Source: Candidatus Nitrospira kreftii (GTDB taxonomy: Bacteria > Nitrospirota > Nitrospiria > Nitrospirales > Nitrospiraceae). Taken from it: DNA of 64,000 bases. The notes below the pieces were generated by a model. It worked only from the letters and a program-made list of their open reading frames with translations. It had not been told where the DNA came from and made no database searches. Location: NCBI GenBank assembly GCA_014058405.1, contig CP047423.1, positions 3,394,501 to 3,458,500 on the forward strand, read 5' to 3'. Positions 1-17,526 of this stretch are shown here, piece after piece; the first letter of the stretch is position 1, and every line of letters begins with the position of its first letter. The position numbers and the translations under genes were made by a program.

Positions 1-957
1 GGCATCCACGGAACCAAAATCAACCTGCGCGTCCTCAAACTCCCAGAACCGTGCGTTGGGCATGCCGCGAAAACTCACCGGAGCGGGAATCGCGCTGTGC
101 GTGATCTCGGTAAGCGTGTCGTCTGACGCTCCGCCCAACGTCACTTCGGGATTCACATCGAAGGCGTACCAATCCAAGTGACCATCAAAGTATTCCCCGG
201 CCGTCAGCGGCACTTCGCCGTCGCTGAAGCGCGTGCCGATTGAGAACGCATACTCCATGCGCTCCGGCAACCATGTGGGATTCTCCTTCGCAGGTTCATT
301 GAAAAGCGTGTCGAACCAGGTCAACCAGAGTCGCGCAGCCTCTCTCACGTCAGCCAGATCACCGGGTGTGACTTCAAGATCGGGAGCGATGACGATAACT
401 CCAGCATTGGTTTCACGAAAGGCTGTGTGGAGCAGTCTTCCATCGGGCACCCGTGCCGCCATGAGATCGATGAAAGCCAGACTGTCGCTATCCACAGTCA
501 CACGTTGTTCTGCAGTCAGTCTTGGCAGGGGATACTTACGAACGAAGGCGTCGCGGTAGTCACGTGAAATCGCTCCCGACTCGCGCATCTGGTCCAACAT
601 TCTTAAGAACTGCTGGCCTGACTCCGCCGTGAAGCGAAGTTTTGCCGTCTGATCTTTTGCAGGGAGAATTGTCTCCCGTTCAACCAACGTTTCCAGCGGC
701 ATACTCGGGTCATACCGAGGAGCGTTCGCAATAGTGTTGGCCTTGATTGCTCCTGGAAAATAGCGGGAAAGTCTCGCTGCATCCGCACGCCAGCGCGCCG
801 TTATCGGCGAGCCGTTATCCTCCCCCTGGAATTCTCCTAGTTGCCATTGGCGAGCGAGTAGCCAGAGCGGGTCGTAGATCTTCGCCTGCAAGCTATTTTT
901 CATCTCAGCATTGCGGCTGAGCGGCTGTAATCTCATCCAACTGGTTATCGATGTCAT
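1..957 (-). CDS. Conserved protein of unknown function, C-terminus cut by window edge
   Basis: This frame is open on the minus strand from an ATG at 957 to the window edge, giving about 319 residues with no stop, so the gene continues beyond base 1. The N-terminus has no signal peptide. Residues about 28-46 read DPLWLLARQWQLGEFQGED, a strongly patterned motif that I associate with uncharacterised bacterial proteins but cannot tie to a named family. No catalytic motif is visible. The start is 6 bases after the stop of the 1571-residue gene, so it is the last visible gene of the operon and probably translated by coupling. Function unknown; the coding call itself is firm because the frame is open throughout and the composition is protein-like. 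Confidence 0.85.
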   Translation of the reverse strand, partial: MTSITSWMRLQPLSRNAEMKNSLQAKIYDPLWLLARQWQLGEFQGEDNGSPITARWRADAARLSRYFPGAIKANTIANAPRYDPSMPLETLVERETILPAKDQTAKLRFTAESGQQFLRMLDQMRESGAISRDYRDAFVRKYPLPRLTAEQRVTVDSDSLAFIDLMAARVPDGRLLHTAFRETNAGVIVIAPDLEVTPGDLADVREAARLWLTWFDTLFNEPAKENPTWLPERMEYAFSIGTRFSDGEVPLTAGEYFDGHLDWYAFDVNPEVTLGGASDDTLTEITHSAIPAPVSFRGMPNARFWEFEDAQVDFGSVDA

Positions 958-963
958 AAGTGA

Positions 964-3900
964 CTACTTCACCGTTGTAAAGTCGGTCGACACAGTGTCG
1001 CCGAGTGTGTTGTACGCAAAGTATAGCGCCGGCAGATAATGTCCGACTTCATCCAACGTCACCGGATCGACTGCACGCATCCGAGCCAGGTCGAGGGTCT
1101 CCAAAAGTAGCTGTTGCAAGGACCAGATTGTCCATGGGGTCCCCATCTCTGGCGGCACAGCGATCAGAATCGTTTGCGGCGGCGCAGCATTTGGTTGGTC
1201 GTATTGCATCGCAATGCCTGTCGTCTCGGTTGTGCTCGGCACGGTCTCCACCCATTCATCGATCAACACTCCTGCCAGTGTTTTGCGTACGTTGAGATCG
1301 GCGGACGACTGCACCGCAATCGAGAGCTTCCCTCCGGGAATGTTCCTTCCCTCTGCTAGCGGCAGCGCCACCCACCGATCTCCTTCAGCGTAGGGAAGTT
1401 GTACGATCTTCAGTTTTAACTTCTCACCCGTGTTGAGGGCTTCAGCATAACTGAGCGCTGCACTGAGGTGAGACATCCCGTCACGTACCCGAGCCATTCG
1501 CTGGAACCACGCAGGAGCAACGAGAGGATCGCTGCCTTGAACTTTGTCGCTGTCAGCCAACGCCTTCTCAAGCTCCTCAATATTGGCGGGCGTGAAGCGT
1601 GGCAGCACGATGAACGCTTTACCAAATACGATTTGCAGGCGAGAAATCGCATGTTTCAACTGGTCCTCGACAGACGGAGTCGCGAGCGCTTCCAGTTGTT
1701 CCTTGCGCTGGACCAACTCCTTTTGAATTGATGCGGCTTGGGTCATCAGCACTTGACGATCGGTGGTCGAGTCGCCAGCAGACAGTGGCACTGCGCCGGC
1801 TATACCAAACGCTGATGCGCGAAGGATCAATTCACGCAATTCGGTGAGATCGCCCGGCGAGGCGGTTTGCGAATTGAAATCCTCGAGGGTCTGCTGCAAA
1901 GCAGTGACAGCAGCGGACGCACGCTTATTGAGCTCCTCCATGTCGACACTGAACTCAGCTGTTCGATCAGGCGGATTCAGGTCCTCGCCATCCAATGCTC
2001 GCACGTTCGTGAGCAACCGCTTCGTTGTTCTCAGGGCCTCGCGAAATTCACCATAACTTAGCTCGCTGCTGCTCCACTCTGGCATTCGCTGCGCATTGAC
2101 ACGCAGCAGAGAACCAGCGGCAAATCCTCCGGGCCGAGTCATCATCTGTAGCAACAGGCGCTGCTCGATCTCCGCTTGTTGTCCATCCTTTCCCCCTTCG
2201 ATGGCGTGGATATAGTCGAGAGGAGCTTGGCCCAGCTGATCCAAGCGAATCTCTTTTATCTCCAAAACTTTTCCGGTGACGGGGTCGAGATGCTCGATCA
2301 GACATCGTACGTGTGCCGGATTTGGAAGCAGCCTCGCAGCCCAGGCATTCATCTGCGGTTCGGCGTTCGCGCGGGGTGAACGTGCCGACCAGTGCGTGGG
2401 GAGCTGTGGCTCTCCACTGAACAACGACACGACGCGATGCGTGAGCGCAATACCCGTGCGGGGAGTTTTCACGACTTCGAGCTCAGGCGGAGGAGTCTCC
2501 CCTCCGGCGACCGACTCCACAGTGCTCGCGGCGCGCAAGGGATTTCCACGCACGACCTGATGCACGCTCTCCGCCATGAGGGCATCGCTGACAGCATCGA
2601 CGGCCTGTTCCAGGAGGTCTAGCTCCGCTTTCAATGCTTCGAAATCAGCGTTGTTCGGATCAAATGGAGGCAGCACGGGTGTTTTCTGATTGACCATTTG
2701 TCCAAAGGGAATGGTATTCATGGTCCATGGGGATGGCGAAGTCGACGTTCCCTCCTTACCTTTCTCCCATCGACGCATCAGCGCCAGTCCATCCACGACG
2801 TTGTTGGCCGCTAGGGACTCGACCGAGGCTGTCTGCTGCCCGGGCTCGAGTTTCCGCGCAACCAATGGCGCGAGCTCACGAAAAACGGAGATGAACTGCG
2901 CTTTTCGTATCTCCTGCAACCGCCGTTCGAAGCGGTAACCGAGTAATGCACCGAGTGGTTGTCCCTGGCGTACACCATCGAGCAACCACGTGGCGAGTCT
3001 CACTCGTTCCGACGACAAGTCAATAGCCAGAAGATCGCTGACGGTACCGCTACTGGACTGGGCCAGATGACCACTGCGCAAGATGGCTACCGTTGCTGCC
3101 TGAGTCAGGGATGGTGTGTGAACGAAACCGGGATTCTTTGCCGCTTCAAACACTGGTGCTTGTTCGCCTGGAGGTGTAGGAGCTTGCGCCTGGGGTTCAG
3201 CTGGTCTCAGGTTCATCACCCAACCATAGCCGCCCAACAGAACTCCGGTCGGATCGCTTTGCCGCATCTCTTCCAATCGTTTAGTCGCAAAGGAAGTGAT
3301 CCAGGCATCGAGCCGGTGTGAGCACAGATCGAGCGTGCCGATCATCAACTGTTCGAGTATGTCGACATCAAGCGACTTCAGGTAGGCCAGGCTCGCACGA
3401 AATTCACTCAAGTGCTTGAGATCTGGCTCTCGTGCGACATCCGGTTCACCACTTGGAGAAAAGTTGATCAAGTACTGTCCGACCGGCTTCGAACCTTCTG
3501 TGAGAACGATGTTCGTCTTCAGTCGCTCCCAGATGGTCGGCACCGTCAGACTCGGCTGCATGCTCAGAAGTTCTGGCTCACGTTGCAGGCCTGGCGTCAA
3601 CAGATTCTGTTTGATCAACAGATGCGACGCAGCCGATGCGTATTCCAGCAACATCGAGTGGCGCAAGAGCAAGTGCAGCAGTGTGTGGGGTACCGGCTGC
3701 TCGAATGTGTCACCTTGAAACCACGCTTCCTTGGCAAGGTCGCGCAAGGCGAGCAGCGATTCAATGTAGTTGGGCGACAGCGATTGATTCCCGTTGGCTT
3801 GGACCAGTGTGCCATTGAGTGGTGCAGTGGCCGTGGAAAACACCGCATGAGCCATTCGCGGTTTCCACGTAATGCCAAGCTCGCCCAATACGGTTGCAGT

Positions 3901-5679
3901 GAGTCGCTCCTGAGCCGCCCACCACTCGGGGACGGCACCCCGTTTGGCGTTGATGCGATTGATTACTTCCTGTCGTGCTCGGATCGCGTTACGCTGGATC
4001 GCTTCTTGTTGCCTGATGAATGCGACTCGCATGGTCTGTTGTTGCCTGATCCACTGAGCACGAAAACGCGGAGCCAGGTCTTCAGGCGGATCCTCGATTG
4101 GAGGAGGTTCTTCCATTGGAGGAATGTCGGGAAGTTCGAGCCCCCACACGTCGAGGAAGAAATCACCGCTGAGGAAGACCAACAAGTTGTCGAGATAATG
4201 ACGCCCCAGCAGTTGTCGTACGGAATAGCTGGAAGAGAGAGCATCGATGCTCAGTACTTCGGGAAGATCCTTGTCGAGACCGTTACCGTCGATCTCATCG
4301 GTTCGGCCCAGTCGAGGCACGTCCTGAATATTGCGGCGCCAAATTTCACGCAGTTTGAGCAGCAAACCATGTAAAACCTTGTCGCGATTGATTTCGTCTC
4401 CCTGATCCACGCGGGCTTTCCAGGCGGTGAGCGAAGTCACAGGAAGTACGCCGTACGGTTGCGTACCAACCCGAATCGCGGGCAATGGACCACCGGCGCG
4501 CACGTATTGAATGAAGTGGTTGCGAACCCAGGCAATATCTGATTCTGATAATGGGCTCTCACCTCCTACGGCGCTCGATCCCAACATCTGCAAAAGAAAG
4601 TAACCCCACGTAGCTTGCCAGAGCGCGGTGTTCATCTGTCGCGCATCAAGCTGTTCGGTGATCGCAGCATTGGGCACGTTCGCGAAAACCGGATCGGCCC
4701 TCAGCCCTAATGCGTGCGTGAGTCGATCACCATCGGTCCCACTTGGTTTAGCTGGGGGCTCTCTCAGTTCGGCGAGATAGCTGGCTTCGTGACCCGAATC
4801 ACTCGAACTAAATCCAGACGGCGCATCCTGAGTATTGTTGGAAGGTGTCCCCTGGCGTATGAATCCCAGCCCGTCGGTGTAGTGATGAGCGTTGAAAAGA
4901 TCGGAAAGCCGTTGTGCAGACTTTTCAAGCGAGTTTTTAATTCCGATGACAAGTAGAAAATCGAAACCAGCGGCAGCATCTGCTTGCGAGAGTTTTACGC
5001 GAATGCCCATCCCCTTCGCTTCGGCGGATGCGAAATCAACCATCCACCTCATATCCTCATCGATGCCGGACTCGTCGACGTTCGCGGTCGAGGAAGGATT
5101 TGGACCAGTCGCCAAAGGATCGTCTATTGCCTCACCTGTGACGTTGACTACCAGTCTGCCGTCTTTGTAACCAAGTAGAGTCCAACAATCCGGTAGGACG
5201 TACGTATGCGGCGTGCGCGTCCAGGAGCCCTCCTTCAGTTCCGGAGAGGGAAAGCGTACCGGTTTTGGTAAAGCCTGATTGCTGCCGATCGGATTCTGAG
5301 GGCGATCCTCGGGGTTGAGCGGCTTGAGTGTGCGCGCAACCCACGCCGCGCGTTGCGGATCCAGCCTGTCTGCGAGCTGCCGCCACGCAGCTTTTTCTCG
5401 ATCTTCATTTCCGGCCGCTCGCCACATCTGTCCCCAAAAGTGTTTGCCCCATGTCAGCTCGTCCACAGTCAGTTCAGGCTCGTGGGAGTCATTGTGGATT
5501 GTGTCAGGATAGACTCGCACGCGAAGTTCCGAAGTATCAGCGGCTTGGAGAACAAATCGGGTCTCGAGTCGAACCGGGAATAGGACCAGCGGGCGAGCAG
5601 GACCGGACGCAAGCTCAACTCCAAGCTCAGGAGTACTGAGGATGTTTGGAATCGGAGGGTTCGGAGTAGCCATACTCAT
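964..5679 (-). CDS. Giant conserved protein (1571 aa), function unknown
   Basis: A 1571-residue protein with no signal peptide and no evident membrane helix. The N-terminus (residues about 30-60) reads as beta-strand-rich (LVLFPVRLETRF, then RVRVYPDTIHNDSHEPELT). A middle conserved-looking patch RVGTQPYGVLPV lies near residue 410. The region around residues 530-600 is rich in Pro, Glu, Arg and Gln (PPMEEPPPIEDPPEDL, then many Arg/Gln), likely a helical or disordered linker. The C-terminal part has long helical stretches and ends with DEWVETVPSTTETTGIA and a YDQPNA segment. I see no enzyme motif. The ATG overlaps the upstream stop as ATGA (5676-5679), showing translational coupling. It belongs with its neighbours to one operon; a structural or assembly role is possible but not shown. 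Confidence 0.88.
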   Translation of the reverse strand: MSMATPNPPIPNILSTPELGVELASGPARPLVLFPVRLETRFVLQAADTSELRVRVYPDTIHNDSHEPELTVDELTWGKHFWGQMWRAAGNEDREKAAWRQLADRLDPQRAAWVARTLKPLNPEDRPQNPIGSNQALPKPVRFPSPELKEGSWTRTPHTYVLPDCWTLLGYKDGRLVVNVTGEAIDDPLATGPNPSSTANVDESGIDEDMRWMVDFASAEAKGMGIRVKLSQADAAAGFDFLLVIGIKNSLEKSAQRLSDLFNAHHYTDGLGFIRQGTPSNNTQDAPSGFSSSDSGHEASYLAELREPPAKPSGTDGDRLTHALGLRADPVFANVPNAAITEQLDARQMNTALWQATWGYFLLQMLGSSAVGGESPLSESDIAWVRNHFIQYVRAGGPLPAIRVGTQPYGVLPVTSLTAWKARVDQGDEINRDKVLHGLLLKLREIWRRNIQDVPRLGRTDEIDGNGLDKDLPEVLSIDALSSSYSVRQLLGRHYLDNLLVFLSGDFFLDVWGLELPDIPPMEEPPPIEDPPEDLAPRFRAQWIRQQQTMRVAFIRQQEAIQRNAIRARQEVINRINAKRGAVPEWWAAQERLTATVLGELGITWKPRMAHAVFSTATAPLNGTLVQANGNQSLSPNYIESLLALRDLAKEAWFQGDTFEQPVPHTLLHLLLRHSMLLEYASAASHLLIKQNLLTPGLQREPELLSMQPSLTVPTIWERLKTNIVLTEGSKPVGQYLINFSPSGEPDVAREPDLKHLSEFRASLAYLKSLDVDILEQLMIGTLDLCSHRLDAWITSFATKRLEEMRQSDPTGVLLGGYGWVMNLRPAEPQAQAPTPPGEQAPVFEAAKNPGFVHTPSLTQAATVAILRSGHLAQSSSGTVSDLLAIDLSSERVRLATWLLDGVRQGQPLGALLGYRFERRLQEIRKAQFISVFRELAPLVARKLEPGQQTASVESLAANNVVDGLALMRRWEKGKEGTSTSPSPWTMNTIPFGQMVNQKTPVLPPFDPNNADFEALKAELDLLEQAVDAVSDALMAESVHQVVRGNPLRAASTVESVAGGETPPPELEVVKTPRTGIALTHRVVSLFSGEPQLPTHWSARSPRANAEPQMNAWAARLLPNPAHVRCLIEHLDPVTGKVLEIKEIRLDQLGQAPLDYIHAIEGGKDGQQAEIEQRLLLQMMTRPGGFAAGSLLRVNAQRMPEWSSSELSYGEFREALRTTKRLLTNVRALDGEDLNPPDRTAEFSVDMEELNKRASAAVTALQQTLEDFNSQTASPGDLTELRELILRASAFGIAGAVPLSAGDSTTDRQVLMTQAASIQKELVQRKEQLEALATPSVEDQLKHAISRLQIVFGKAFIVLPRFTPANIEELEKALADSDKVQGSDPLVAPAWFQRMARVRDGMSHLSAALSYAEALNTGEKLKLKIVQLPYAEGDRWVALPLAEGRNIPGGKLSIAVQSSADLNVRKTLAGVLIDEWVETVPSTTETTGIAMQYDQPNAAPPQTILIAVPPEMGTPWTIWSLQQLLLETLDLARMRAVDPVTLDEVGHYLPALYFAYNTLGDTVSTDFTTVK

Positions 5680-8603
5680 CCAGACCGTTTAATCATCTCT
5701 CTTGCATGGATGGCAATACGCATCGGGCGCTGCAAAGTGATGTATGCGAGGTGCGAAGAATTCTTCCCCCACGTCGCCTTGTCAATCGTCTGCGTGTCGA
5801 TGTTCGGCACCACGCGCTTAATCGCACCAAGGGAAACATGCGACAGCGCTTTCAACTCTTCTTCCGTCTGAGCCATGTGTCGCCAGCTCAATTCGTTCCA
5901 GGTTGTCGTGAGCGCAGGTGGGGCTTTGGTGAAATCTCCAACGTCCATTCCGAAACAGGGCTCCGTGGGTTGTTGCTGAATCACAAAGAACCAACCGTTC
6001 GGATCGTGCGGTGCTTCGCCTTTGGCTTGAGCTTCTGTGAGATCAAAACCGAGGAACGTGACGTCGGAGTTCAGTCGTCCCTGGAAGAGTGGGTGACGTT
6101 CATCCGCAGACTTTTTCGAAAGTGTTACTCGTTGATCCTTCGGCACCGCAGCCACCGCATAGATCACTGAATTCGGATAGCGTTTGAGTAGTTCGCCGCG
6201 AATCAGTAGGACCAGCTTGTCGCCAGTGTTCGGTGTGTTCTGGCCCAGCTCGCGATCACCCCACAGGCTGATTGGTTCGAGATCGGGCTTATCACTACCG
6301 GCAGAAGTGTCCCAGAACTGTCGAAAGTACGTGCTGCGCTGGTCGGTCGGATAATTGCGCCAGAGCATCTCGTGACTCATCTCCGCGTTCAGCCCGACCA
6401 TGAATGATTCGACGAACTTCGGATTCGTGCCGAGCAGTGTTACAGTGTTTGCCGGCACATGGTCTAAACCTGGCAGCAGGTAATCCTGAGACAGATCTCG
6501 CAGCGCTTCATACATCGGCTGCGGGAAGACGGGTGAGTCCATGACCGGTTCAAGTGGGTCGTCAGTCTTGTTGGCTTCAGGAGCTAAGCGGACCGAGAAA
6601 TCTATTCGCCTCTTCATCGTCATGCCCGGAACGATGCTCTGCAGCAGCGCTTTCCTTGTGGCTGACAGGTCGATTGTTGGTGATTGATCGGACGGCGGAG
6701 TAGCAAACGCCTTGACCATGTACTCGTGATGATCCTTCGCGGCCTGACGAAAGAGCGCTGCGGCAGGATTGTCGGCAGTTCCTCGAGTGAAGTCGAGCAG
6801 CGTGCGGACCTGCCCCTCAGGAATTTGCGCGAAGTCCGCCAGCTGAGGTGCGCTATTCAGCGCCACAACCGTTCGTTCAAACCGAATCGTCTCGTTCAAT
6901 TGCGCGGCCAATCCCTGCGCTCTGGTGGCCACGAGATTGATCGAGATCAAGGCGGCTTCGTTCGCTCTAAAAGCTAAGACGGGCGTGGCGGCATTCAGTC
7001 TGGCGAGGATGGAGATCGGTGCAGCGCTGACTGGGTGGAATCGTGCGCTAACCCGACTCCGTGGGCTCGTCAAACGTCGCATCGGTGCGGAGACAACGCG
7101 ACCAGGAATAACGGACTGCGAGATCGTCTGTGATAACAGGGCGCGCGTCGTGACGTTGTTCACACCCGCGGTTTCCACCACGACTCGAGATTGAGCGACG
7201 CTGAAGACCTTCAACAATGTCTCGCCAGAAAATCGGCTGAAGTATTTCGTATAGTAGACATGGTTGACTGCACGGGCCAGCTGGGCCTGACGTCGCAGTT
7301 GATTGATGCGATCGATCTCGCCCAGTTGCTCCCACGCTGAGGCCATCAATGCCTCCTGTTGCGTCTGCACAACGTGAGTGCCCAGCGCTGCCACAGCTCG
7401 ATGTCGCGGATCGAGATTCAGTTCATCCAGCCAGGCTACCGGCGTCTGTGATGGGGGGAAAAGGCTCACCGTGTGACGCGCTGCTTGCCAGCAACCATAA
7501 ATCGGTGGCGCGACGATCGGTTTTTCGATACCGTCGTTCTGCATCGCGAGCCACGGAGCGTCGAGGATCTTTTTCAGTTCTGTTTGAAACGGCGTGCGAG
7601 TTGACTCTTGCCACTCTACCCTTGGTGAGCCAACAACACGCAACGCGCCTTCAAACTCGAGAGTGGTGCCAACTGGCAGAGTGATGTGGAAGTCAGGATC
7701 GCTGATGTCTACGCGTCGCTTGCCGATCTGTGGAGTGTCGCGCAGATCACGCGCAGTCAGAAGTTTCACCAACGCTTCGAAGTCACCACCGGTACCGGTG
7801 CGAAACTCCCAGTGGAAGTAGGCGGGCAACGTCACGGCATCAGCCTGGGTTGTCCATGCCGGCAACAACTCCGTCTCTTCATCACGTTCGCCATCGCGCT
7901 GAATCGGTAAACCTAGCCCGGCTTTTCTTCCCAGTTCAAACGTGGGCACAACACAGGCGAGGTAATCTGTGAGTGGATCAAGACGACGGGGACACAACAA
8001 GCGTGAAAGCGTCAGCGAAGGATTCCCACCGAGTGCTTGCTCCAAAGAGCCCTTGCTAAGCGCACTTCCGGCAACTTGGGCATGTGCCCATGCCCACGAT
8101 TCAGTCAGGTCGGGAAGTTCGTGTGTCGCGTGAGCCCTTATCTCAAGGACAGGTAATGGGAGAGTACGGTCCACTCGGAACACGACGTGACCCTGTTTGC
8201 GAACGACGATCAGACAAAGCCATGGCCGCAACTTCCCATCAGCATTTGCAGAAGCAGGTGTAAAAATCCAGGGAAAGTCGGGACGATCAAATTCGATGGC
8301 AGGAAAATAGTTGGGCTCGAAGTCTGTTGAGAGATGTCGTGGCTCGGTGCGGATTACTTGCAGGCGATCGATGCCCGTGACATCGCCTGGTCCATAGAGT
8401 TGCACCTGACGTTCGATATCGGGTGCCGCGTTGTTGATGCCCAGCTTGACGCGCACTGAGACAATGCCAGGTTGGGTCTCGCTCATGTCCGGCGTCTTGA
8501 TGCCGGATGCAGCTCCCTGACGCACCCAGGGAAGGAAGATGTAGTTTGCTGAGGTAAGAGTCATGGCTGTGGCACCCACATTCGGCTTGTGCGTTCCCTT
8601 CAC
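5676..8603 (-). CDS. Large conserved protein (975 aa), function unknown
   Basis: A 975-residue protein without signal peptide or membrane helices. Near the N-terminus it reads YIFLPWVRQGAASGI, then VQLYGPGDVTGID and FEPNYFPAIEFDRPDFPW, aromatic/Pro-rich blocks that look structurally constrained; the segment after them (LRPWLCLIVV) looks like a core beta strand. No catalytic signature is seen. The start at 8603 is GTG and overlaps the upstream stop as GTGA; an internal ATG at 8564 (MTLTSANYIF) is an alternative. The stop overlaps the next start as ATGA. These junctions argue for near-stoichiometric synthesis with the 1571-residue and DUF6603-like proteins. Function is unknown. Confidence 0.87.
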   Translation of the reverse strand: MKGTHKPNVGATAMTLTSANYIFLPWVRQGAASGIKTPDMSETQPGIVSVRVKLGINNAAPDIERQVQLYGPGDVTGIDRLQVIRTEPRHLSTDFEPNYFPAIEFDRPDFPWIFTPASANADGKLRPWLCLIVVRKQGHVVFRVDRTLPLPVLEIRAHATHELPDLTESWAWAHAQVAGSALSKGSLEQALGGNPSLTLSRLLCPRRLDPLTDYLACVVPTFELGRKAGLGLPIQRDGERDEETELLPAWTTQADAVTLPAYFHWEFRTGTGGDFEALVKLLTARDLRDTPQIGKRRVDISDPDFHITLPVGTTLEFEGALRVVGSPRVEWQESTRTPFQTELKKILDAPWLAMQNDGIEKPIVAPPIYGCWQAARHTVSLFPPSQTPVAWLDELNLDPRHRAVAALGTHVVQTQQEALMASAWEQLGEIDRINQLRRQAQLARAVNHVYYTKYFSRFSGETLLKVFSVAQSRVVVETAGVNNVTTRALLSQTISQSVIPGRVVSAPMRRLTSPRSRVSARFHPVSAAPISILARLNAATPVLAFRANEAALISINLVATRAQGLAAQLNETIRFERTVVALNSAPQLADFAQIPEGQVRTLLDFTRGTADNPAAALFRQAAKDHHEYMVKAFATPPSDQSPTIDLSATRKALLQSIVPGMTMKRRIDFSVRLAPEANKTDDPLEPVMDSPVFPQPMYEALRDLSQDYLLPGLDHVPANTVTLLGTNPKFVESFMVGLNAEMSHEMLWRNYPTDQRSTYFRQFWDTSAGSDKPDLEPISLWGDRELGQNTPNTGDKLVLLIRGELLKRYPNSVIYAVAAVPKDQRVTLSKKSADERHPLFQGRLNSDVTFLGFDLTEAQAKGEAPHDPNGWFFVIQQQPTEPCFGMDVGDFTKAPPALTTTWNELSWRHMAQTEEELKALSHVSLGAIKRVVPNIDTQTIDKATWGKNSSHLAYITLQRPMRIAIHAREMIKRSG

Positions 8604-11600
8604 ACCGGCTGTAGTTCCGATGGTCTCAAGACCTTGAAGCGACTGGCTTGGGTCGGGGTCTCCTGTCTCAACTTGCTCAGCTCCGCCACAGCTTCTGAAT
8701 AAGTAGGCGCTCTGTCTGCCACGCCTGTGACCGACTGCTCAGAGAGTTGCGCTCGGTCCACAATGGTCCAACCCTCCCGTGCCATCTGGTGCTTGACTGT
8801 TCCCGTGCGATACCGGGCCTTGCCCGTGCGCCGCAGCTCACTATTGGCCGCTGCTCCAAACCGCGACTGTCTGCTGAGCAACAATGGGCTCAAGCGGTAA
8901 AAGAGCTTTTGTCCCTGCCCATCCTCTTCATCATCGCTCTCCGACACATTCGTTCCCTTGTCCAAAATCCACGTTTCAAACTCGATGGCCTCTACCTCCA
9001 GCCAGTCCCGCGTATCCGTCGTGAAGACAATTACGTCCGAAATCAGCGCCACTCCCGCATCCATCGGCTCAAACGAAGGTCGTGACAATTTCTCGTCATC
9101 CGTCAACTCCAGAAACTGTGCCGGTGCGAAGAAGTCCCTCACCGGTCTCGGCACCTGTTGCTCATCTCCCACCGTCACATCCGTGATCGTGAATCGTCTC
9201 TCTCCCGCCGGTATGGCCTGTCCAAACCGCGAGAGGTCCATATTCAGCGGGACCACGTTCTCCTTCACCTGCAGCGTTCCCAGTGGATGCAACCGAAGGC
9301 CCGCCTCCCCCGGTCTCGCATTCAGTGTCACCAGCGGTCGCTGTCCCACCGCCAGCTGTGTGGCCCAGCTGTCCGGATGCCTGAGCGCCTCCTTCAACAG
9401 TGGCAACACTTCAATCGGCGCCGGCGCCGGCGGCTTCTCGCCCTTGACCAGCGTCGTATCCACTCTGATGGTCACGTCCCACCAGAGGATCTCGAACGTC
9501 GCCTTGCCTTTCAGATGCAGAGGCCGTGGTCCAGCCAGCGAGCCTTCTACTTTGACTTTGAAGAGATTGGTGGACCCGCGCTTGAGTTGTAATTGTGCGT
9601 GGAACTCGGCGATGAAGAAGAAGGGGTCAAGCTGGATCAACACATCATAGCCAATCTCGCCCTGAATGCTGAACCCCGACGCGGCTGCGTACAGCTCTGC
9701 GCGGGCACCGAACTGGACCGTATTCGCCGTCAGCGCAAAATACGCTTCACAACGGATGCGTGGATTGTCCCCAGCAGACAGGTTGATGGTGATACGCTCC
9801 AGTTTCGGGAAATTGACCGGCGGGTTGAACGCCGGGTGCAATCCACCGATGGCCAAGGCAAAGTTGGGCGAACCCTCCCATTTCAGCCGCATGGCCATGT
9901 CGCCCGTCAGCACGAATTTCTTCAGCAGCCTGGAATCGTAGAGGGAGGCGTCAAGTGAAGCCGTGCCCTGGTCGAAGTCGATCATGCCGATCGCATCCAT
10001 CTGCAAACGCACCAGATCATGATCGCGGCGGGGGAGGATGGCGGCAATCTGGGCGAGGATCAGCAGCCTAAGTCTGGCGCCCAACTCCAGCACCACACCG
10101 ATCTCGGCAGTGATGAGTGCAGGAGTGCCCCAGGAAATCTTGACCATGGGGCCGAAGAGATGATGACCTGCAGCAGGAGGAAACACGCGATTGAGATTGC
10201 TGATGATCTGAGGAGCATTACGGATCGGATCCTTGGGGAACATCACGCTGTCGAGCGTGTGGTTCTTCAAACCCGCGCGCAGAGCCTCTTCATTGAACGT
10301 GCGATTGAGCGCGAGCAGGCCACCGATGCCGGTGAGCGCAAAGCCAAAGCCCAGTTGAATGGGTGTGAAGCCTTCGACGAAGATCATCAGTACGAGTGAG
10401 TAGCCTTTGCTGCCGTCGGGCAGGCGTGTTGAGAGCAGACCGATTGCTTTGACTGAGATCTTCTCGGCGATCTCGAGCTGCAGCACGCCACCGTATTCGT
10501 GTTTCTCAATGTCGAAGCGCAGAAATCCGCCGCCCACAACGCCCGGAGCGTTGATCTCCAACCCAATCCCATTTGGTGGAACGGGTCGAATCCTTAGATC
10601 CGCAGACCCCAGACTGCCTGGACCAGACGTGATAGCAGCTCCCACTCCGAGCTGGTCCACGACGAGAACGACTGGGCCAATCTTGACGGACACACCAACG
10701 CTGACAGCGAGCGAGATGCCATCCGCCTGGGTCGCTAACACGAGGTGAAGTGCATCAATTGTGACCGGTCCGATCCTGCGGCCCAGCGTTTGACTGACCT
10801 TCAGTTCAGCTCGACCGCCTAGGCGAACTCCGTTGCGGTGGGACCAAGACAGGTCAACATCCGCATCGACCGTAAGACCCTCATCAGATACTGCGCCCAG
10901 GAAAGGCACATCCTCTGGTTTAACCGTGACTTTGCCACCCTTGAACTCGATGCGGACGATGGCATCGGTTTGCGATTTGTCAACAAGCGCGCCTACTGAG
11001 ACTGCGATTGACTTGGCTTCGACCGTTGCTCCTCCAGCCGATATCAGGGTCATCGGCGGGGCGGTTGGCGGCATCGCAAGCGTCAGGTCGAAATTGACCT
11101 CAGCGCCTGCCCCGCCCGTGGCGGCCTGCGCTCTGTTTAGGTTGGTATGCAGGACCGGATCGTTGTTGGGTCGAAACACAAGGGCGATACCGCTCTCAAG
11201 ATCCGCCTGAGCTGACATCCCCACCGAGATAATGGATGACAACGGCAATCGAATCGCGGCGGTACCCTCCGCATACGGCGCGAGGCCGAGTCCACCGTCG
11301 GCACCACCTGAGGTCGTTGGCGGCAGACCGAATACTGAGATTCCGGTTTCACCTGAGAGTAGTCCAGCCGAGCCCAGCAAGGGGAGCAACAGTTGGAGTT
11401 GTGGTGGGTGTTCGGTCAATGGACCACCGTGCATTCGCGTCAGCGGAATCCCTGGCAACTTGCGATGTCTGACTTCTGCGGCGATGTGTTGAAGCACTGC
11501 GCCGACACGAATGACCAACGTGTCTGGGTCGAATGCCGGTGTGCCCCAGCCATAGGTTTCCCGAAAGAGGTCCGTTGGGTCTGTGAAAAGTTTCGGGACG

Positions 11601-12112
11601 CGATCCCAGTGCACGACATGGCGGATGTGAGGCACTTGAAACTTTGCCGGATCAGCACCGAGGCGTTTCACCTCAAACCATCCGAGCAATGAGGCTACGT
11701 CAAAGAGCTCTGGAGCGGAGATCGCCACGGACTGGATCAGATAGAGATCCATAAGCCGGGTCAGAAATTCTTCCTTGATTTGAGCCCGGTCCAGGTATTC
11801 TTGCGGTGCTTGAATGTTTATGACCTTGAGCTCACCAAGCACATCAAGCACGGCATCGGCGAGCTGGGCCAACGTGTTGACCTGGTCTTCGGTTGGTACG
11901 TCAGGATTACTTGCGAGCTCCGACCACTGGGTGAGGTGGGTGCCGACACGTTCCATGTCAAGTGCCGCGAGACCGATATCATCCGCACCCGGTGGCAGAT
12001 CCCAGCCGAGCTTGGCCAGCAACAAACGTGGACCATTTGTGGCTTTCGTGATCGATCCGGCCAAGGTGAGTGCGGAAGCGATTCCTGCCAGTAATGTCTT
12101 TTCGGCGCTCAC
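8600..12112 (-). CDS. DUF6603-like giant beta-rich protein (about 1170 aa)
   Basis: I choose the GTG at 12112, which overlaps the upstream stop as GTGA; an in-frame upstream start at 12148 would add 12 residues inside the preceding gene. The first 230 residues look helical, and about residues 230-900 are a long run of alternating hydrophobic/polar strands rich in Gly and Val (for example FGFALTGIGGLLALNRTF near residue 580). I recall this pattern, with the following AGLKNHTLDSVMFP block, from proteins assigned to DUF6603; that assignment is from memory and not checked. No signal peptide is seen. The repetitive amphipathic strand pattern would suit a long beta groove or solenoid, but that is inference. 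It sits directly after a phospholipase-D-fold gene in the same operon. Confidence 0.82.
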   Translation of the reverse strand: MSAEKTLLAGIASALTLAGSITKATNGPRLLLAKLGWDLPPGADDIGLAALDMERVGTHLTQWSELASNPDVPTEDQVNTLAQLADAVLDVLGELKVINIQAPQEYLDRAQIKEEFLTRLMDLYLIQSVAISAPELFDVASLLGWFEVKRLGADPAKFQVPHIRHVVHWDRVPKLFTDPTDLFRETYGWGTPAFDPDTLVIRVGAVLQHIAAEVRHRKLPGIPLTRMHGGPLTEHPPQLQLLLPLLGSAGLLSGETGISVFGLPPTTSGGADGGLGLAPYAEGTAAIRLPLSSIISVGMSAQADLESGIALVFRPNNDPVLHTNLNRAQAATGGAGAEVNFDLTLAMPPTAPPMTLISAGGATVEAKSIAVSVGALVDKSQTDAIVRIEFKGGKVTVKPEDVPFLGAVSDEGLTVDADVDLSWSHRNGVRLGGRAELKVSQTLGRRIGPVTIDALHLVLATQADGISLAVSVGVSVKIGPVVLVVDQLGVGAAITSGPGSLGSADLRIRPVPPNGIGLEINAPGVVGGGFLRFDIEKHEYGGVLQLEIAEKISVKAIGLLSTRLPDGSKGYSLVLMIFVEGFTPIQLGFGFALTGIGGLLALNRTFNEEALRAGLKNHTLDSVMFPKDPIRNAPQIISNLNRVFPPAAGHHLFGPMVKISWGTPALITAEIGVVLELGARLRLLILAQIAAILPRRDHDLVRLQMDAIGMIDFDQGTASLDASLYDSRLLKKFVLTGDMAMRLKWEGSPNFALAIGGLHPAFNPPVNFPKLERITINLSAGDNPRIRCEAYFALTANTVQFGARAELYAAASGFSIQGEIGYDVLIQLDPFFFIAEFHAQLQLKRGSTNLFKVKVEGSLAGPRPLHLKGKATFEILWWDVTIRVDTTLVKGEKPPAPAPIEVLPLLKEALRHPDSWATQLAVGQRPLVTLNARPGEAGLRLHPLGTLQVKENVVPLNMDLSRFGQAIPAGERRFTITDVTVGDEQQVPRPVRDFFAPAQFLELTDDEKLSRPSFEPMDAGVALISDVIVFTTDTRDWLEVEAIEFETWILDKGTNVSESDDEEDGQGQKLFYRLSPLLLSRQSRFGAAANSELRRTGKARYRTGTVKHQMAREGWTIVDRAQLSEQSVTGVADRAPTYSEAVAELSKLRQETPTQASRFKVLRPSELQPV

Positions 12113-14325
12113 TGCTTGATGTCCTCGATGAGGGGCCTTCGGTCCCACTTACCACTTGAGAAATGGAACTTGCGGCTGCCCGTAATCGGACGTATCACTG
12201 CCTCGTTTAGTGGTTTGAGTTTTACACCCAAGGCGGCGAGGTGCTTGCGAGGCGTGTCGAGACAGCCGCCGTCTTCCTTGGGATACTCAAGTATGAAGCC
12301 GGGCAAATCCTCGCGCTTTGCTTGTGTCACGTGTTTGAGCGCGCGCTCAGCTGCTGGTCTCCAAAGCGACGTGAGCCACTGATGTTGTGGTCCAGTTGCC
12401 AACGACGGATCCTCATGATCCGGTATTCCGTTCTTCAGAATTCCCAGATGCTCGGCCCAGAGTCGTCGTCGGGTGAACTGCGCGAACTGGTTAGCTGAAC
12501 CGGGAGCTGTGGGAATGATATTGAGATTGAGTTCGCAGGCAGTTGTTTCGCCAAAAGCCAGTGGGCTAAGCAGCAAGTTGTAATCCAGCGAAAGGCCGTC
12601 CAGGTTTGCCGAACCGATCGTGGCCCACGAATCGTCTACGACAGCTCCCTTCGCGTGAATGTACACCGGTGCGACGAGAGGACGAACGGCATCAAGACGT
12701 TTGTCGTAAGTCCATCGAGTAAAGACGCCGACGCGATCACCTCCCGCTTCCCTGATCTGTTCGATCCGTTTGGCTTGCCGCCTCGGATAGAACATCACGT
12801 CGGGTTTGATCGGCACGACCATGATCACCTGGAGATTGCTGTTGGCTTTCAGAGCGGCTACCAAAGCGTCAGTGACGACTCCGTCAGTGAAGTACTGGTT
12901 TTCCATGTAGATGTAGTGTCTAGCAAGGGCAATCGCCCGCAGATAGCCTTCGAGAATTCCTTTTTCACTCTCGCGATTGAGTTCTTCGAAACGCTTGCCG
13001 CTCATGGTGCGCACGACCTGGAGCTTTGCGATCGCATCTTCACCGGAAGTCTGCGTGTTCGGTTCAAGGTTTTCAGGCAAGGCGGGTAGCTTCTGGTTTT
13101 CTGAGAGATCTTCATTCCAGTAGACACGAAAAGTTTCGTAGAGGTCTCTTGCGGCTGGTCCGACGACAGCCATGCTCAAGTCGTGGACTATATCCGAAGT
13201 GTTTCCACCACGGCGCGGCTCATCGAGCTGGTGCCGCAGCGTATCCCAATACCGTTGAGAGAATGGTGAACCAAGAACGACGGCGCGATCGTTGTCCACG
13301 ATCACCATCTTGCAATGTTGCACTCCATGGTCTGGTGCTTTTTGCTTGAAACCTCGCACGGAGAGTCGTTTTACCGTTTCATTGGCAATGGCCGGGCCCA
13401 AGTACCGATTCAAGTTGTCGACGTCTGTCGTCTCCTCTAGGACTTTTCGGATCTTGATGTACTCAACGAAGAACAGCACTACGCTTGTCAGGAGCACCAG
13501 GGGGAAGAAAGGGAGGCCGACTCCCATCAACGCAGCTATTCCGACTGCACCACCGACGGGAATTCCGGCCGCGAGGGGAGTCAGAACAGCGAGCCAAAAG
13601 AACGCTTCCGGAAAACTGAGGCCCGGTTCGTTCATCAGAATCCTCACGATCGTCTTCTTCTCCAACATTGACTTGAGCAGCAGTCGCTCTGGACGCTCAT
13701 CGCCGATTCTCGGTGAAGGATCTGTTGGCGCACCTGCTTGTGCGGGATCGATCGGAATCAAAGGCGTTGGAGAGAACTTAAAGACAAGGTTCGCTTTCTC
13801 TCTGGGCTCCTTAGTCGCTGGATCTTTCTCTTCGTTCTTTATGTGAAATTCTTCTGGCACGCCGAAGAACAACTGGGTCATGTTGATCGAGTGGTTGGCG
13901 AGTTTGATTTCATCTGCAACTCGGCCAAATGCTTCCTCCCCATCGATGAGAAGCTTGACGGCGTTGCCTTCGCTCACAAACTTTGCAATGCCGGTACCGT
14001 TGGTAACCAGGAGTCCTTCTGCATCAGCCCGAAGAACGGTGATTTGGTTGAGGTCAATATTAGCTTCGGTGAGAAACACCTCCCTATCGGAACTCAATTG
14101 GCGCCCAACAAAGTCAACCACTCGCACGGTAAGCTTGGGCGTAATCGAACCGGCCGCTGTGGCTTCGACCTCGATACTGTCGAGTTGAAAAGTGAACGTA
14201 CCGTCGACGACGTTGGCCTGACTTGCCTTGTCTGACGTGAGTAACCAATTAGCAAACGCGACGACTCTTACGTTGTTCATCGGCCTAGCTTCCTCATCGA
14301 TGACACGACCGCTAACAGTGATCAT
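12109..14325 (-). CDS. Phospholipase D-superfamily protein with N-terminal beta domain and membrane hairpin
   Basis: 738 residues. Residues 1-110 look like a carboxypeptidase-regulatory/Ig-like beta sandwich (ITVSGRVIDEEARPMNNVRV). Two complete HKD motifs are visible: HCKMVIVD followed by GSPF near residue 337, and HAKGAVVD followed by GSANLD near residue 556. Together they make one PLD active site, typical of phosphodiesterases and transphosphatidylases acting on phospholipids or nucleic acid. Between the N-domain and the first HKD, residues about 242-285 form two hydrophobic stretches (FFWLAVLTPLAAG; FFPLVLLTSVVLFFVEYI), probably a membrane hairpin, which favours a lipid substrate. No signal peptide. 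It is the first gene of the giant-protein operon; the Shine-Dalgarno sequence is weak (GGCAGGGCGAC before ATG). Activity is predicted from motifs only. Confidence 0.88.
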   Translation of the reverse strand: MITVSGRVIDEEARPMNNVRVVAFANWLLTSDKASQANVVDGTFTFQLDSIEVEATAAGSITPKLTVRVVDFVGRQLSSDREVFLTEANIDLNQITVLRADAEGLLVTNGTGIAKFVSEGNAVKLLIDGEEAFGRVADEIKLANHSINMTQLFFGVPEEFHIKNEEKDPATKEPREKANLVFKFSPTPLIPIDPAQAGAPTDPSPRIGDERPERLLLKSMLEKKTIVRILMNEPGLSFPEAFFWLAVLTPLAAGIPVGGAVGIAALMGVGLPFFPLVLLTSVVLFFVEYIKIRKVLEETTDVDNLNRYLGPAIANETVKRLSVRGFKQKAPDHGVQHCKMVIVDNDRAVVLGSPFSQRYWDTLRHQLDEPRRGGNTSDIVHDLSMAVVGPAARDLYETFRVYWNEDLSENQKLPALPENLEPNTQTSGEDAIAKLQVVRTMSGKRFEELNRESEKGILEGYLRAIALARHYIYMENQYFTDGVVTDALVAALKANSNLQVIMVVPIKPDVMFYPRRQAKRIEQIREAGGDRVGVFTRWTYDKRLDAVRPLVAPVYIHAKGAVVDDSWATIGSANLDGLSLDYNLLLSPLAFGETTACELNLNIIPTAPGSANQFAQFTRRRLWAEHLGILKNGIPDHEDPSLATGPQHQWLTSLWRPAAERALKHVTQAKREDLPGFILEYPKEDGGCLDTPRKHLAALGVKLKPLNEAVIRPITGSRKFHFSSGKWDRRPLIEDIKQ

Positions 14326-14790
14326 GTCGCCCTGCCTGGCAAGAGGGAGTCAGAAGAATGTCGGCCGGTACGTATCATGCCAATGAATCTCCTAACCCAC
14401 GAGCCTGTGATGATCCGCTGCAACGGATGACTACCTGCTGAATGATAGCTAGACTCATGATAGCCCCAGAGGTGAGGACCGCAGTTGGTAGAGAGACGGG
14501 TGATCTTCGATTTCTGTGTTGAGAGGCACAGCCCAGGGTAGATGACCGCACTGACTGCAATCACTCGTGATCTCAGCGGGTAAGGCCGCTTTATAAACCA
14601 CAGTAGACCCTCCGGATTGCCGGAACTAGCGCGGCTGCGAAAGAAACCCAGCGGCAATGTATGCCTCTACCATTTACGAGTCAAACGCTTTTTTGTATGG
14701 AGGCGTGTGCGCTGTAGAAATACGTGATTTACAAGACTAGAGAGGAGATTGTGCGAGGAAGCGCACACCTATTTGGACAGTCGCCGCGCA
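14326..14790. other. Intergenic region between copA 3' end and the giant-protein operon
   Basis: This 465-base gap must hold the operon promoter for the minus-strand giant genes and the end of the copper ATPase transcript. I see an 8-base direct repeat ATGATAGC at 14442-14449 and 14457-14464 (15-base period), which could be a regulator half-site pair, and a short hairpin TGTGCG/CGCACA at 14750-14755 and 14762-14767 with a 6-base loop near the end of the copper ATPase gene, without a clear T-run. No convincing gene is present. Confidence 0.4.
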
Positions 14791-17526
14791 TTACAAACGT
14801 AAAGTCCGCAACCGAAGCGCGTTCGCAATCACCGACACAGAACTGAACGTCATGGCGGCGCTGGCGAGCATGGGGCTCAAGAGCACCCCGACGAACGGAT
14901 AGAGGATCCCAGCGGCAATGGGAACCCCGAGGATATTGTACACGAAGGCGAAGAAGAGATTTTGTCGAATGTTCCGCATCGTCCCTCGACTCAACCGGCG
15001 CGCCCGCGCAATAGCTCGGAGATCTCCCTTCACCAACGTCACTCCGGCGCTTTCCATTGCCACGTCAGTCCCTGTTCCCATCGCGATTCCTACTTGGGCC
15101 TGCGCCAAGGCCGGCGCATCGTTGATCCCATCTCCCGCCATTGCCACGACATGGCCTTCTGATTGAAAGCGTTTGACAATCGCCGCCTTCTGTTCGGGCA
15201 ACACTTCGGCATGGACATCGTCGATATGAAGCCGCCGCGCCACCGCTTCAGCAGTCGTCTGATTGTCGCCGGTCAGCATCACGATCCGCAGGCCTTCGTT
15301 ATGCAATAGGTCGATCGCCTCCGGCGTGGAGGACTTGACGGGATCGGCGACCCCCAACAACCCTGCCGGCTTGCCGTCGATCGCCGCGAACATCACGGTC
15401 TGGCCCTCAAGTCTCAACGGTTCAGCCTGCGCCGACAAAGTCGTCGTCTCGATGTTCGATTCGTTGAGATACCGCTCAGTCCCCACGGTCACCACACGGC
15501 CCTCAACCATGCCCGTGACCCCTTTCCCTGTGAGCGAACGAAAATCCTGCGCCTTCGCGGGCACGATTCCCTTGTCTCGGGCGCCGGTCACGATCGCCGC
15601 CGCTAAGGGATGCTCGCTGCTTTGTTCCAAGCCGGCTGCTAACGTCAGAAGCTCCGTCTCGTTGAAATCCGGTAACGGAGTGACCGTCATGAGACGAGGC
15701 TTACCCTCCGTCAGCGTGCCGGTCTTGTCCACGACGAGAATATCTACATGTGCCAAGGTCTCCAGCGCTTCCGCGTTTCGGATCAGGACCCCTGCCGTCG
15801 CGCCACGCCCGGTGCCGACCATGATCGACATGGGCGTCGCGAGCCCCAATGCACAAGGACAGGCGATGATCAACACCGCAACCGCATTTAAGAGCGCATA
15901 GGCCATACGCGGTTCGGGACCAAAGAACGCCCAAATCGTGAAGGTGACAACGGCGACCGCAATGACGATCGGCACGAAGTAGGCCGCGACAACATCCGCA
16001 AGCCGTTGAATCGGCGCGCGCGTACGCTGCGCCTCGCTGACCATTCGCACGATTTGCGCCAGCAACGTCTCTCGACCGATTCGCTCCGCCCGCATCACAA
16101 AACTACCGGTTCCGTTGACCGTCGCTCCTAGAACCTTTTGGCCAGACATCTTTTCAACGGGGATCGACTCTCCTGTTACCATCGATTCATCGACGGCACT
16201 TGAACCCTCCAGCACCACCCCATCTACCGGAATCTTTTCGCCGGGTCGCACACGCAACCGATCACCGACTTGCACCTGTTCTAACGGGATATCCTCTTCG
16301 CGAGCATCGTTTCGAACCACACGGGCCGTTTTTGGTGCCAGCCCTAAGAGGGCTTTGAGAGCGCTGCTGGTCCGACTCCTAGCTCGCAACTCCAACACTT
16401 GCCCTAACAACACGAGAGCGATGATGGCCACCGCTGGTTCGAAGTAGACGGCAAGCTCCCCTCCGTGGACGCGGAAGGAGTCGGGGAACATTCCCGGAAC
16501 CAGCGTGGCTGCAACGCTGTAGAGGTACGCCGCGCCGGTCCCAAGTCCGATGAGGGTGAACATGTTCAGATGGCGACTGACGATCGATGCCCAGGCTCGC
16601 TCGAAAAGCGGTCGACCAATCCATAGCACTACCGGCGTGGCCAACAAGAACTGAAACCAGACAAGCGCTCGTCCAGAAACAAGTTGTTGCAACGGCTGGC
16701 CCGGCATCATTTCAGAAATCATCAGTGCGAAGATGGGTGAGCCGAGGACCACGCTCTGCCAAAACCGGCGCGTCATATCCACCAGTTCCGGGTTGACTTC
16801 CTCCACTGTCACCGTGCGTGATTCCAATGCCATTCCGCAAATCGGGCATACACCTGGCGCCGACTGTACGATCTCCGGATGCATGGGACAGGTATATTCG
16901 GTGCGAGTCGGCACCACGGTCACGTCCGCCGGCTCCAGCGCCATCCCGCAGATAGGGCACGCTCCGGGCTTGGTCTCTGACACCTCTGGGTCCATCGGGC
17001 AGACGTACTTGACGGTTGCGCCGGCTGGAACAGAAGCGGGTTTCGGAAGGCGCTGCTCAGGCGGGGTCAGATAATACTCAGGGTCGGCTCGAAACTTGCC
17101 GAGACATCTGGTGGCACAGAAGTAGTACGTCTTGTCGCGGTATTCGTAGGAACCGGCCGCCGTGGCCAGTTGTACCGTCATCCCGCAGACGGGATCGATC
17201 TCACCCTGCCTGACCGGTTCCATCATGTGTATCGGCTTCCGCGGAGCAGGCATCGTGATCAGATTCAGCGGCTTTTTGCTCAGCACCTGTTCCGGATCGG
17301 CACGAAATCGTTCCAGGCAGGACACCGCGCAAAAATAGTATGTCGTGCCTTTGTAGTCATAGCTACCCGCCGCCTTGGCAGGATCGACAGTCATACCGCA
17401 TACAGGGTCGATCTCCGACATCGCGTGAGCGTGCGAAAGAGCGTGGGTGCTTGGGATGTTCTCGCTCATGCGGTCACCTCCTGCGTGCGGCTTCCCGCAA
17501 CAGCCGCTCGATGATCTCTTACTCAT
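14791..17526 (-). CDS. copA: Copper-type P1B ATPase with two YHS and two heavy-metal-binding domains
   Basis: Exports monovalent copper (or silver) from the cytoplasm using ATP. The N-terminus has two YHS domains ([10 protein letters not shown], residues about 39-85; [10 protein letters not shown], about 109-155) and two short heavy-metal-binding domains (YVCPMDPE...CPICGMALE, about 172-200; YTCPMHPE...CPICGMALE, about 208-236), in place of the usual HMA domain. Then come eight membrane helices with the CPC transport motif (IIACPCALG, near residue 558), DKTGTLT, TGDN and GDGINDAP. Two starts have good ribosome sites: 17526 (AAAGGAG, adding a CCGKPH metal-ligand-like leader) and 17469 (AGGAGGT). 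It is downstream of the cysteine-tailed sigma factor and the DsbA-like gene, all on the same strand. Substrate is inferred from the CPC class. Confidence 0.93.

Follow-up and report, generated by a model that had tools for sequence, protein, structure and literature searches.

The genes B, C, D and E of the window (the whole 64,000-nucleotide stretch that was analysed) form the constant unit of what is almost certainly a genuine and undescribed functional module, and the phospholipase D (PLD) encoded by gene A ahead of them is one of many interchangeable enzymes found at that position. Homologues arranged as B-C-D-E are present at about 100 loci, which represent roughly 15 phyla and extend to haloarchaea and Nitrososphaerota, and per-protein profiles give the order BCDE in 73 loci and ABCDE in 7, with nearly all of the remainder being contig ends, duplicated B genes or split ORFs. 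Close coupling is conserved across these loci, with the genes overlapping or no more than 30 bases apart at B/C in 78 of 96, at C/D in 73 of 102 and at D/E in 86 of 96, which rules out chance, and the operon usually ends right after E. The proposal in the initial annotation that the set constitutes a module is strongly supported by this co-occurrence in unrelated bacteria, and in archaea as well, with B-C-D-E kept in order across loci rather than scattered. The five-gene composition proposed for it held in part: the last gene, E, is a full member of the set, whereas the first, encoding the PLD, is an exchangeable partner outside the constant core.

Relatives of C are present in 28 of the 295 Nitrospirota genomes sampled, E in the same 28 plus one remnant, and DUF6603, the family to which B belongs, in the same 28 plus two more. 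The module is found in Acidobacteriota, Nitrospirota, Pseudomonadota, Bacillota, Chloroflexota, Bacteroidota, Actinomycetota, Cyanobacteriota, Myxococcota, Goldiibacteriota, Ignavibacteriota, Vulcanimicrobiota, Gemmatimonadota, Nitrososphaerota and Halobacteria, an account drawn from locus titles and taxonomy in which many loci are metagenome bins and single assignments may err, and in which the major groups include isolates. Relatives of C also lie on plasmids (haloarchaea, Streptomyces, Nocardia, Rhizobium, Paraburkholderia and Gemmatirosa) and in at least 491 stretches of the GTDB collection, a lower bound obtained by scanning with two peptide patterns. Presence in two domains of life, together with strict gene order and exchange of the enzyme, leads us to expect a distinct cellular role. 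In the module of the Nitrospira defluvii type (L048, L049, L060, L061), DUF6603 is encoded twice, and a further gene of 270-370 codons separates C from D.

All five minus-strand ORFs (Table 1) were confirmed in the window, which lies on a complete 4.13 Mb chromosome from Nitrospirota, in the same family as Candidatus Nitrospira defluvii. The couplings originally described were all found again, with GTGA overlaps at A/B and B/C, an ATGA overlap at C/D and a gap of 6 bases (TCACTT) between D and E. The mechanical ORF call for B begins at 12148, compared with the coupled GTG start codon at 12112. For E, reported as longer than 319 residues, the genome sequence bears this out and places the stop 798 bases past the window edge, and a cation-efflux operon follows E beyond the window.

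Table 1. Coordinates of the operon genes in the window and of related features at other loci
Feature	Position	Strand	Description
A	12109..14325	-	Variable enzyme slot, phospholipase D in the window copy; 738 aa; two HxKxxxxD motifs; hydrophobic segment at residues 251-288; N-terminal carboxypeptidase-regulatory-like domain (weak)
B	8600..12112	-	DUF6603 protein, 1170 aa from GTGA-coupled GTG; AF2 model predicts a helical N-terminus followed by about 30 long antiparallel strands
C	5676..8603	-	975 aa; conserved core protein with variable central region; matches no known family
D	964..5679	-	1571 aa; conserved core protein; inserted domains in some relatives; matches no known family
E	1..957	-	Residues 1-319 of 584; gene end outside the window at G000:C1:3393703; matches no known family or fold
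Intergenic region 5' of operon	14326..14790		Adjoins the gene for a copper P-type ATPase; boundary of the module inferred by comparison with same-genus relative G043
C with transmembrane-like segment or hairpin			L052, L065, L101, L107, L110, L114, L116, L121, L140, L141
Stand-alone S1/S8 C-terminal-domain proteins	L102 4659-5075; L115 3668-4090; L127 4582-4998; L052 17668-18066		Encoded beside partner proteases
Sister operon loci	L147 7244-19001; L148 2913-10592; L149 862-14836		

At most loci a same-strand gene lies directly upstream of B, typically overlapping it or a few tens of bases away. Among 70 such genes there are 16 PhoD-like proteins, 7 M64 peptidases, 7 PLDs, 6 subtilases (S8), 2 galactose/glyoxal oxidases and 2 DUF2515 proteins, with tyrosinase, beta-lactamase-fold and DUF4056 proteins and families without assignment as rarer types, a tally in which a few assigned genes may be unrelated neighbours; a further 13 upstream genes carry the GDSG motif of S1 (trypsin-like) proteases. 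On the C tree, at least 24 switches of enzyme type map among 59 loci. The S1 and S8 partners have in common a C-terminal domain of about 115-170 residues, which also occurs as stand-alone proteins of 130-140 residues beside those proteases. By its sequence distribution this domain would fit a docking part, and the small protein is a possible adaptor. A single docking domain common to all enzyme types was considered and rejected, the domain being found solely in the S1 and S8 proteases. The PLD partners have predicted membrane segments. In the case of the window, the A protein is placed in the PLD superfamily by the motifs HCKMVIVD and HAKGAVVD and by matches to PF13091 and PF00614. It has the same fold and HKD motifs as two other members of that superfamily, DrmC of the DISARM system and cardiolipin synthase, but it scores 28.7 against the DrmC equivalog, far under the cut-off of 133, and 60.4 against cardiolipin synthase, for which the cut-off is 290, and the other Drm proteins (DrmA, DrmB) are absent among A-E.

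The only matches among A-E in Pfam, NCBIfam and PHROGs are the PLD in A and DUF6603 (PF20248) in B, of which B is a clear member (471.6 bits compared with a gathering cut-off of 27; E 3.6e-141). DUF6603 is a Pfam family without a described function, and we found no mention of it in the literature searched. None of these libraries holds a family for C, D or E, such that three of the four core proteins fall in no searched family and the fourth in a domain of undescribed function. The view that nothing apart from the PLD has a known activity is upheld, and no two of the proteins turned out to match well-known unrelated families. Neither ATPases nor known relatives were found among the core proteins. 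Sequence-profile searches of the PDB gave nothing credible for C and D, only chance coiled-coil matches in the helical N-terminus for B, and for E a match to 3kdq (E 0.0018) that we judge probably due to chance. The idea that C, D and E are repeats of each other was rejected, a weak similarity between D and E being the sole exception. A viral origin was also set aside, with C absent from IMG/VR and E giving only a 48-residue edge match on one short contig. A GenBank entry from faeces labelled "Bacteriophage sp." (MT835531.1, L066; UNVERIFIED and unannotated) encodes C, D and E, and is probably bacterial DNA filed as phage.

Structure models were made for B and E, the latter from the copy of an Acidobacteria locus (L068) that is about 66% identical. 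The B model (mean pLDDT 78, pTM 0.58) places its long antiparallel strands between residues 350 and 901, and among solved structures it comes closest to beta-barrel membrane proteins (SlpA, LptD, FimD, porins) and apoB-100, a loose resemblance with rmsd of 8-14 Å and TM-scores of about 0.1-0.3 that does not separate a barrel from an open sheet or a lipid groove. The model suggests a very large amphipathic beta sheet, with no pore shown. Compared with outer-membrane beta-barrels, B has this structural resemblance, but no Sec signal is detected in 105 B proteins and the hosts include Actinomycetota, Bacillota and archaea. The E model (mean pLDDT 79, pTM 0.77) matches no PDB fold, with a best Foldseek E of 0.22 and a best VIA Z of 2.6 among Foldseek's own candidates, and none of the BFVD viral models matches it at an E of 0.001 or below. 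Model confidence is low at the most conserved N-terminal motif of E, DPLWLLARQWQLGE, which one would expect if this segment depends on a partner.

The absence of signal peptides noted for the window proteins extends to the family: a simple Sec-type heuristic is positive for 1 of 421 core proteins compared with 2 of 3 secreted controls. Some core proteins contain inserted LamG_3, PA14, F5/8C, Kelch, FG-GAP or LTD domains, and most, those of the window included, are without a recognisable binding domain. The variable middle of C contains, in one clade, a hydrophobic segment or hairpin that looks transmembrane-like. The predicted sheet of B, the putative membrane segments of the PLD and of this C clade, and the glycan-binding-type inserts are compatible with the lipid-linked or surface assembly first suggested. 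No gene family recurs beside the module, the neighbours being mixed, and several apparently conserved neighbour families turned out to be antisense shadow ORFs.

A divergent sister operon of four genes occurs in G189, G210 and G199, encoding a DUF6603 protein, a protein related to C over C residues 1-300 (hhalign probability 87%, E 4e-6), a protein of 1169-1333 residues and a Kelch protein. A PLD gene lies directly upstream in G199 (L149), and patatin and NACHT genes are nearby in G210 (L148). The same arrangement is found on Paenibacillus and Streptomyces plasmids (L152, L153).

A constant core with an exchangeable enzyme and binding-type inserts, and with neither signal nor motor, is best fitted by a carrier released from some cells, with an intracellular defence system as the main rival. 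We therefore tentatively favour a carrier that lacks signal peptides, would bind targets and would bear an exchangeable enzyme, and that would work like the toxin complexes without being a member of them. B, C, D and E would assemble with one enzyme into a self-contained complex in the cytoplasm, with the enzyme from the gene coupled to B as its cargo, which for the window PLD would act on phosphodiesters or lipids. D, and less so C and E, would form the body of the complex and tolerate recognition domains at fixed loops, and B would bind lipid or insert into a membrane with its giant amphipathic sheet. Targets would lie outside the cell and be reached most likely by lysis of a few cells, or by some other route, because signal peptides, an ATPase and secretion genes are all missing. 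Weighing against such a carrier are the weak likeness of B to barrels, the lack of a recognisable binding domain in most core proteins, those of the window included, and the fact that a variable enzyme and horizontal spread are also seen in intracellular defence systems. It is possible, though doubtful, that the module represents an envelope-independent enzyme-delivery nanomachine common to bacteria and archaea, built of four proteins unrelated to contractile systems or Tc toxins and serving many enzymes and target-binding domains. Should the carrier reading hold, the module would represent a protein delivery system of a new class, one that takes proteases, lipases, phosphatases and oxidases. 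Its five genes can be removed or expressed together, which opens the unit to direct testing.

Tc toxin complexes (TcA/TcB/TcC) consist of giant signal-less proteins encoded in operons, with an exchangeable enzymatic part and with receptor-binding domains at fixed loops, and the module resembles them in each of these respects. It differs in that its sequences match none of the Tc families, the enzyme is encoded by a separate upstream gene, no RHS/YD shell was found, and the hosts include archaea and free-living chemolithotrophs; Pfam domains of the TcA/TcB/TcC or RHS type are absent in A-E and in 31 core relatives. Polymorphic effector systems and extracellular contractile injection systems likewise pair an unchanging machinery with enzymatic cargo that can be exchanged, and they too spread horizontally. 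In contrast to the contractile systems, no sheath, tube, baseplate or ATPase genes were found in or beside the module, with none in A-E or among the families listed (25 of 134) for 127 neighbours, and E has no phage-tail-like fold in BFVD.

An intracellular conflict or anti-phage system, in which the core would detect infection or damage and set free an enzyme such as a PLD, protease or phosphatase inside the cell, would account for the constant core beside a variable effector, the patchy occurrence, the lateral transfer and the plasmid locations. PLDs, patatins and S1 and S8 proteases serve as effectors in known systems, and the patatin and NACHT genes adjoining the sister locus point the same way. 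The core has no NTPase or nucleic-acid domain, however, PADLOC matches nothing in B, C and E and gives a weak match in D, the flanking genes are without clear defence enrichment (as judged with no formal control), M64, galactose oxidase, tyrosinase and PhoD would be unusual effectors inside cells, and lectin-type inserts fit badly, such that we regard this reading as unlikely. We give still less weight to an enzyme scaffold on the producer's own surface or outside it, exported non-classically for nutrient or phosphate scavenging or wall remodelling: the degradative-type enzymes, the glycan-binding-type inserts, and the transmembrane segment or hairpin in the C clade and PLD partners would suit it, but an export signal is lacking, no co-located transporter was found, no sortase or S-layer anchor was found in most, and the hosts have entirely different envelopes. 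Intracellular, membrane-associated lipid handling or storage, with B as a lipid-binding beta sheet and the enzymes modifying the cargo, is improbable, since the likeness of the B model to LptD and apoB-100, the PLD partner and the patatin near the sister locus are set against upstream enzymes that are mostly proteases or phosphatases rather than lipid enzymes.

The window C protein shares 76% identity with a Pyrinomonadaceae protein. On the C tree, a quick tree with long branches elsewhere, it falls with Acidobacteriota with full SH-aLRT support, apart from the copies of other Nitrospira, which are themselves split into several distinct clades. The window copy was therefore probably acquired laterally. 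In the same-genus relative G043 the same flanks, cation efflux genes and a copper P-type ATPase, lie about 415 bases apart with the module missing, and the gap (L150 9721-10137) holds a two-frame (frameshifted) remnant of E corresponding to residues 266-345; the unit is therefore dispensable and was lost or replaced at this site. The surroundings of the module form a heavy-metal region, with the copper P-type ATPase on one side (window 14791-17526) and an RND cation-efflux operon on the other (L002 12802-18472).
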